From: Firmicutes bacterium HGW-Firmicutes-15
Lineage (GTDB): Bacteria > Bacillota > Syntrophomonadia > Syntrophomonadales > Syntrophomonadaceae
Length of the DNA: 64,000 nt
NCBI GenBank assembly: GCA_002840245.1
Contig: PHAA01000002.1
Span: 62,001-126,000 of the forward strand
Reading direction: 5' to 3'
Part shown: positions 46,385 to 55,188 of the stretch, piece by piece
Layout: every line of letters begins with the position of its first letter
Position numbering within the stretch: position 1 is the first letter of the stretch
The notes under the pieces: model-generated
What the model was told of the DNA's origin: nothing
Databases searched by the model: none
What the model saw: only the letters and a program-made list of their open reading frames with translations
Translations under genes and position numbers: made by a program

Positions 46385-46394
46385 TTTTGCTTAA

Positions 46395-46597
46395 GGGACT
46401 ATCAAAAAATAAACTAGTCATTTACTCCGGTCTTTTTCGCACTATTCTTCGTTCTCAAAGCTTGGAATACGTCCACCCTGCGGGTACCACTGGTGCTCCC
46501 TTGCGGTCGCCAATAATGTTGCAGTATGACTGCGCTTTGGAGCCTTGTCTAGCGCGATCCTCGGACGATTCTGCCTTGTTTATTCCTTGATAGCCCC
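46395..46597. mobile_element. MITE-like element, family A, copy 1
   Basis: GGGACTATCAAAAAATAAAC at the left and, inverted, GGGGCTATCAAGGAATAAAC at the right bound about 203 bp. It has no credible gene and starts 10 bases after the nif3-like stop. Outer parts match the element in rnpB; the middle (about 46473-46523) is inverted relative to that copy. No long target duplication is evident; TAA on both sides is possible. It may also work as terminator. Confidence 0.7.
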
Positions 46598-46715
46598 TAA
46601 ATAAAGCTATTAAGGGCTGATTGTAAAAATATTTTTGGGAAACTGGGAGGAATTTCTTTAATACTGTTGAATGTTAAAGTATGATTAGGACGAGATGGGA
46701 AATGAGGAATTATGA

Positions 46716-54181: not shown

Positions 54182-54285
54182 GCACATCATTATTAATAGC
54201 GACCTGACGGGAGCACCAGCAACCTTAATAGTGAGCTGATGCGAACACCAGAAGTCCCCGAAGGGGGTAGTACCCGGAGGGTGAA
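54182..54285 (-). repeat. core-only copy of the family A repeat
   Basis: The blocks GCGACCTG, GGGAGCACCAG and GGTAGTACCCGGAGGGTGA match the middle of the elements at 46395 and 54698, without the terminal inverted repeats. It lies between asnB and the rnpB terminator. Confidence 0.5.
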
Positions 54286-54331
54286 ATGTCCCCAAGGAAG
54301 GTGAAGGAATAGTACATCTGAATAAAAAGTG

Positions 54332-54353
54332 AAAAACCGCCATTTCTGGCGGT
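54332..54353 (-). terminator. rnpB terminator
   Basis: Reading leftward, ACCGCC and GGCGGT form a stem with a 6-base loop followed by TTTTT. It stands about 28 bases beyond the 3' end of RNase P RNA. Confidence 0.85.
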
Positions 54354-54380
54354 CATTTCATAGTTCTTGATGTTTATTAT

Positions 54381-54940
54381 GTAGCAAGTAAATCTGTAAG
54401 CGGAGTTCTGTATTTGATAATCATCTATCTAGGATGCTAGTTGCCTAGCACCTCCAGCGACCTAACCCGGGAGCGAGGCGGGCGACCTCACTGCTCCTCT
54501 ATTCGGTCTTGCTCCAGGTGGGGTTTACCTAGCCAGACAGTCACCTGCCTGCTGGTGAGCTCTTACCTCGCCGTTCCATCCTTACCAGAGAGCTTTCGCT
54601 CCTGGCGGTCTATTTCTGTGGCACTTTCCTTGGGGTCGCCCCCACTGGACGTTATCCAGCACCCTGCCCTGTGGAGCTCCGACTTTCCTCAGGTATAGGG
54701 ACTGTAAAGGAATAAATAAGGTAGAATACGCCGAGGATTTTTAGTGTTATACAAGGCGTCACCCTCCGGGTACTACTGGTGCTCCCCAGAGGTCGCCAAT
54801 AATGTTGCAAAACGTGGTGATACTGGGGGTATTGGCGCGTTTTGAGAACGAAGTATAGCGCTAAAAAGACCGGTGTAAATGACTGATTTATTTCTTTACA
54901 GTCCCTTGATACCCGCGACTATCTGACTTACTTGCTCACC
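54381..54940 (-). ncRNA. rnpB: RNase P RNA (type A), interrupted in helix P3
   Basis: The minus strand carries all conserved RNase P regions: GAGGAAAGTC (CR-I, 54690-54681), GCCACAGAAA with ACCGCC, GGTAAGGATGG and GAGGTAAGAGCTCACC (CR-IV), and the CR-V region with AGATAGATGATT and ACAGAAC. The ends pair to form P1 (AGCAAGTAAGTC with GATTTACTTGCT). Between GGGTAT (54914-54909) and ATACCT (54696-54691), the two sides of P3, lies a 208-bp TIR element. Without it the RNA would be about 352 nt, a normal length. Its terminal repeats would extend P3 as one long helix, so function may be kept. TATAAT (54947-54942) lies just before the 5' end. Confidence 0.93.
54698..54905. mobile_element. MITE-like element, family A, copy 2, inserted in rnpB
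   Basis: GGGACTGTAAAGGAATAAAT at the left and, inverted, GGGACTGTAAAGAAATAAAT at the right are the terminal repeats (19 of 20 positions). The outer portions match, in reverse, those of the copy at 46395, while the central 50 bases have the same orientation in both, that is, inverted relative to the ends. It carries no gene and lies in the P3 loop of RNase P RNA. Confidence 0.8.
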
Positions 54941-55188
54941 TATTATACATGAATTTCTAACCTGTATCTAGAGCTTATTATTTGTTGGGGTTGAATAATT
55001 TTCTATTTTTCTAAAAAAAATATAATTGCTAGCAGGAAATTGCTTTGCTTTAGAGAATAGTGTAATTTATAGAAATGGGAGCATGAACGTATGTGAAATA
55101 TAAAAAACAGAAAACCTTATTGTTTTACATCGTTCTTAGTAATAAAATATCTATTATGATAATCTTTTAAAAAAGAGGGGGTGAAAAG

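Follow-up and report, generated by a model that had tools for sequence, protein, structure and literature searches.

The RNA of RNase P is essential, and its gene is usually present in a single copy. In the window analysed here, a stretch of 64,000 nucleotides from Firmicutes bacterium HGW-Firmicutes-15, a Syntrophomonas-like member of the Syntrophomonadaceae, the gene for this RNA (rnpB) has a long insert in helix P3. The locus raises the question of what the insert is, and whether the RNA works with it or loses it. Our analysis indicates that the insert is very probably the relic of a MITE-like element, which lengthens P3 in the sole rnpB of the genome and leaves the ribozyme working.

The interrupted rnpB gene

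The minus-strand region 54381-54936 matched the Rfam model RF00010 with a score of 256.4 bits against a gathering cut-off of 100, and the P1, P2, P3 and P4 strands and the CR regions of a class A RNase P RNA were all found. The features of the locus are as follows.

54381-54936, minus strand: rnpB, class A RNase P RNA including the insert (RF00010, 256 bits; the sole copy in the host genome)
54942-54947, minus strand: probable -10 box TATAAT of rnpB, shared with congeners
54936-54925, minus strand: P1, pairing with 54394-54383 (pairing probabilities 0.89-1.0)
54909-54914, minus strand: P3 5' strand GGGUAU (probabilities 0.83-0.99 with 54691-54696)
54697-54906, minus strand: MITE-like element of 210 bp in the P3 loop (recognised by its inverted repeats, genome copies and empty site in congeners)
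54883-54906, minus strand: 5' terminal inverted repeat in the rnpB sense, pairing with 54697-54720 in the fold
54759-54808, minus strand: nested module of about 48 bp, missing from the 162-bp basic form and also found elsewhere as a free repeat
54697-54720, minus strand: 3' terminal inverted repeat in the rnpB sense, pairing with 54883-54906 in the fold
54691-54696, minus strand: P3 3' strand AUACCU, pairing with 54909-54914 in the fold
54381-54690, minus strand: CR-I (GAGGAAAGUC) to the 3' end, containing the catalytic core and specificity domain, intact (91-93% identity to congeners)
54438-54447, minus strand: P18 pair 54447-54438, U-A here and C-G in all 15 aligned relatives (positions 282 and 291)
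54335-54354, minus strand: probable intrinsic terminator of rnpB, a terminator-like site downstream of the gene

The P1 5' strand (GCAAGUAAGUC) pairs with GAUUUACUUGC close to the rnpB 3' end, and the P4 strands (AAGUCGGAG and CUCCGCUU) were present by sequence reading and are the same in the congeners. The RF00010 score and the pairing of P1 and P3 thus confirmed the preliminary description, which had placed the class A regions on the minus strand with the two sides of P3 212 bases apart. These 212 bases consist of CA and the element. The terminal-inverted-repeat element that had been described in P3 is indeed present, but its dimensions, given as 20-bp repeats and 208 bp, were refined to inverted repeats of 24 nt (92% complementary) and 210 bp between the outer ends; assigning the outermost A/T to a 3-bp target duplication would make it 208 bp. 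P3 and its loop span 224 nt here versus about 12-28 nt in relatives, where the few larger spans reflect our script picking up an earlier CGC. The insert alone folds as a hairpin beyond chance (z = -6.8), and no ORF of at least 60 amino acids was found inside 54697-54906.

The insert also has a practical consequence for annotation. The RF00010 match starts at 54755, within the insert, and insert bases are forced into P1-P3 with many non-standard pairs, while the real 5' strands of P1, P2 and P3 lie past the insert at 54936-54909. Automatic annotation mis-sets this rnpB, since the Rfam model puts the 5' end inside the insert.

A second intact rnpB, which would have spoken against a functional interrupted gene, was looked for and not found: the host genome (3.47 Mb and 99.73% complete, a draft of 84 contigs) contains exactly one RF00010 match. 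RF00010 also matched the class B RNA of the B. subtilis control, and would probably have revealed a gene of that class in the host. The protein subunit gene rnpA is encoded in the genome (contig C79, 59712-60032), and there was no match in it to PIN_5, which we take to be the Pfam family holding the HARP-type protein-only RNase P. The interruption of the gene might suggest that rnpB is a pseudogene and that RNase P activity comes from elsewhere. This is very improbable, and already contradicted by the lack of another rnpB or a PIN_5/HARP match, the presence of rnpA and the conservation of the core, including the compensatory change in P18 considered below.

Origin of the insert

At P3, congeners G002 and G005 have the sequence GGGTAGCAATACCT, and the flanks of the insert in the host, GGGTATCA joined to ATACCT, are of equal length with one substitution. 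The orthologous site is thus empty in these two congeners, and P3 is likewise short and near-identical in G003 and G004. The short P3 in G002 to G005, with the empty site in two of them, indicates that the insert is derived rather than ancestral. The wider set of relatives agrees: P3 was short in all 48 in which CR-I could be located, and a gap of 181-241 nt between P2 and CR-I was found in no other rnpB among 63 genomes of the class, the five further pattern matches of that scan starting in non-rnpB sequence at other loci. Two congeners do not date the insertion, as rnpB is absent from the 75% complete assembly of G006 and is cut by a contig end in G001. The chance that a long P3 is ancestral and was lost by the relatives is negligible; nothing was found in its favour, and the covarying ancestral helix that had been named as a possible refutation appeared in neither the four congeners nor about 45 other relatives.

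An error of assembly, or a chimera in which a repeat copy was misjoined into rnpB, also had to be weighed, given that the element is a repeat and the assembly is in draft form. We consider such an artefact hardly credible: the closest copy elsewhere in the genome is 9% different from the one in rnpB, the insert is just 210 bp long and internal to a contig of 140 kb, and its joined flanks match the empty site of the congeners exactly in length.

The element belongs to a dispersed family. BLAST gave 74 matches to it in the host genome, other copies being, for example, 91% and 87% identical to the copy in rnpB, and the terminal-repeat pattern (at most 2 mismatches) had 99 matches versus 0 for the reversed control. 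A total of 59 paired copies were located in the host genome and congener G006. The basic form is 162 bp long and, among 54 genomes of the host's bacterial family, is carried only by these two; copies consisting of the terminal repeats only (39-47 bp) and copies of more than 300 bp were also found. The copies have no coding capacity, and their termini are GGGRCTRT. Their flanks point to a 3-bp TWA target duplication: flanking 3-mers were identical in 21 of 56 copies (TAA or TTA in 19 of these), the first outside bases agreed in 34 of 56 compared with 20.7 expected (reached in 0 of 2000 shuffles), and T occupied the second outside base in 89 of 112 flanks. None of the copies showed a longer target duplication, of 4 bp or more. 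The multiple copies, the terminal inverted repeats, the empty site and the target duplication of the family all fit a MITE, though the duplication of the rnpB copy is not intact, with flanking 3-mers CAA and TAT in the rnpB sense. It may have decayed, been lost or never formed; the right flank now takes part in P3, as its sixth pair. The rnpB copy had suggested that the family inserts without any duplication, an idea that was dropped after TWA was found. The TWA duplication and the G-rich termini are reminiscent of IS5-like and PIF/Harbinger-type transposons. As for an autonomous partner, which was looked for in the DDE_Tnp_1 family only, the host genome has two DDE_Tnp_1 genes, with no matching termini nearby.

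Compared with bacterial MITEs, the family is alike in being short, multicopy and non-coding, with terminal inverted repeats, a 3-bp duplication and size variants from 39 bp to more than 300 bp. It differs in carrying nested repeats of 48-51 bp and in having one copy within a non-coding RNA that is essential. We propose that a non-autonomous DNA-transposon relic of this MITE-like kind entered the apical loop of P3 after the split from congeners G002-G005.

A preference of the element for hairpins was tried as an explanation and rejected. The joined flanks of 56 copies formed a mean of 4.05 pairs, versus 3.96 with swapped flanks. As there was no hairpin excess, the P3 loop was probably hit by chance and the insertion then tolerated. 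Rfam scans of the 40 loci with most of the other copies showed a single SAM riboswitch touching a copy as the sole structured RNA. This copy (locus L020, 1341-1637; the MITE itself at about 10070-10282 of contig C15) starts at the 3' edge of the riboswitch aptamer, the usual place of an expression platform.

Several other copies were of interest in themselves. A second copy in the window (46394-46598, 205 bp; locus L031) carries the 48-bp module at the opposite position and is flanked by an intact TAA duplication. An 89-bp copy (L132, C79:60388-60476) was located some 360 bp upstream of rnpA; the presence of copies in or near both RNase P genes is probably a coincidence. At L016 and L140, one insertion apparently occupies an orthologous site in the host genome and in G006, with both flanks matching, suggesting that part of the activity of the family is older than the split of these two.

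The rnpB copy exceeds the basic form by 48 bp, which correspond to the nested module. In most genomic copies, positions 1-99 and 146-210 of the element align contiguously and the module is missing. The locus thus has three nested layers, a module within a MITE within rnpB. As a free repeat, the module pattern gave 36 matches in the host genome (G000), 31 in G006, 19 in G007 and 40 in G026, and none in G001-G005 and G030. The repeat reads CAACATTATTGGCGACC...GAGCACCAGTAGTACCCGGAGGGTG. Its sites in the window include 54190-54289 on the plus strand and 54759-54808 and 46470-46522 on the minus strand; at the first of these it is inserted into itself, and it has entered the MITE in either orientation.

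Fold and fate of the RNA

We folded the RNA with and without the insert. All 113 of the 113 core pairs in the minimum free energy (MFE) structure were kept with the insert present, the P4 pseudoknot and the protein being outside the MFE model. The extended P3 was predicted as 6 bp, a CA bulge, 13 bp (54906-54894 with 54709-54697), an A-C mismatch and 7 bp (54892-54886 with 54717-54711), giving 26 bp in all with probabilities above 0.8 throughout. The long helix, examined as a test stem closed by a short artificial loop, had a z of -9.8. These predictions support the initial suggestion that the element extends P3 and leaves the core pairing unchanged. The insert RNA would form an arm that continues P3 and points away from P4 and the CR regions, given that the element ends in inverted repeats and was inserted into the loop of a hairpin.

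The conservation of the gene is consistent with a ribozyme in use. The host rnpB has a branch length of 0.083, compared with 0.071 in G003, 0.053 in G002 and a median of 0.071, which is an ordinary rate. The replacement of C-G by U-A in P18 is, judged from the alignment, a lineage-specific compensatory change; both this change and the rate refer to the entire branch, and neither can be assigned specifically to the time since the insertion. The core is kept, as are the promoter-like box and the terminator, and the searches revealed no alternative RNase P, which implies that the ribozyme must work with this gene. On the basis of the fold, the conservation and the lack of an alternative, we consider it nearly certain that this rnpB yields a working RNA, and the most likely reason is that the insert merely lengthens a peripheral helix.

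The long helix could either be kept as an extra arm or be trimmed by RNase III, as in the intervening sequences (IVSs) of 23S rRNA. We see about an even chance that the RNA, about 560 nt long, is not cut and keeps its extended P3 as an arm. Besides the core pairs kept in the fold, this agrees with the variation of P3 among relatives in both length (about 12-28 nt) and sequence, and with the finding that the insert has no terminator-like site on the rnpB strand. However, the arm contains a near-perfect duplex of about 26 bp, which is a typical target of RNase III.

The insert could instead behave as an IVS, in which case RNase III would cut the P3 helix, most of the element would be removed and the RNase P RNA would be in two pieces. 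This is a serious possibility, although we put it somewhat below even. It draws on analogy: the insert lies in a peripheral hairpin loop, as with the rRNA IVSs, and the P3 helix, with 26 bp, one mismatch and one bulge, closely resembles the stem of the Coxiella 23S IVS (helix 45), which has 28 bp with one mismatch and a bulge and is cut by RNase III in vitro, giving a fragmented but functional rRNA (PMC4990558). However, not every long hairpin in bacteria is cut by RNase III, and protein or tertiary packing could protect P3 from it. A cut would split the RNA in two: the shorter part, some 40 nt from the 5' end, would carry the 5' strands of P1, P2 and P3, and the 3' part would measure about 320-330 nt. 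The bacterium would then naturally possess an RNase P RNA in two pieces, assembled non-covalently and held by P1/P2 and the core.

There is only a slight chance that the element was recruited, for example for regulation, through an internal promoter-like site (54879-54852) or the 48-bp repeat. The promoter-like site, TTTACA-16-TATACT, does face rnpB and has similar counterparts in other copies. However, the region contains 4 promoter-like sites versus 1.6 +/- 1.4 by chance, and a transcript from the internal site would miss the 5' strands of P1, P2 and P3.

Comparison with known insertions and implications

Judged by the resemblance of the arm design, the 23S rRNA IVS is the known system that comes nearest in the way it works. 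Like the IVSs of bacterial 23S and 16S rRNA, the rnpB insert has palindromic ends and occupies a hairpin within a structured RNA that is essential, and its near-perfect terminal stem is about as long and likewise contains a single mismatch and a single bulge. Unlike the rRNA IVSs, it resides in RNase P RNA, has no S23p ORF and comes from a dispersed multicopy element, and its excision here is hypothetical.

Palindromic repeats are also tolerated within functional genes in Rickettsia. The Rickettsia palindromic elements resemble the present case in this respect, whereas the host is unrelated. In cyanobacterial rnpB, STRR repeats were reportedly described by Vioque in 1997; these are short tandem repeats, in contrast to the terminal-inverted-repeat element here. 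No report of a MITE or IVS in a bacterial rnpB, or of a split RNase P RNA, was found in the open-access literature, an absence that is no proof.

The MITE-like element in the sole rnpB extends a known theme, the tolerance of palindromic insertions in structured RNA. A mobile element accepted in RNase P RNA shows how far the periphery of the ribozyme can extend, and the gene provides a convenient case for asking whether, like rRNA, RNase P RNA can function in vivo when fragmented.
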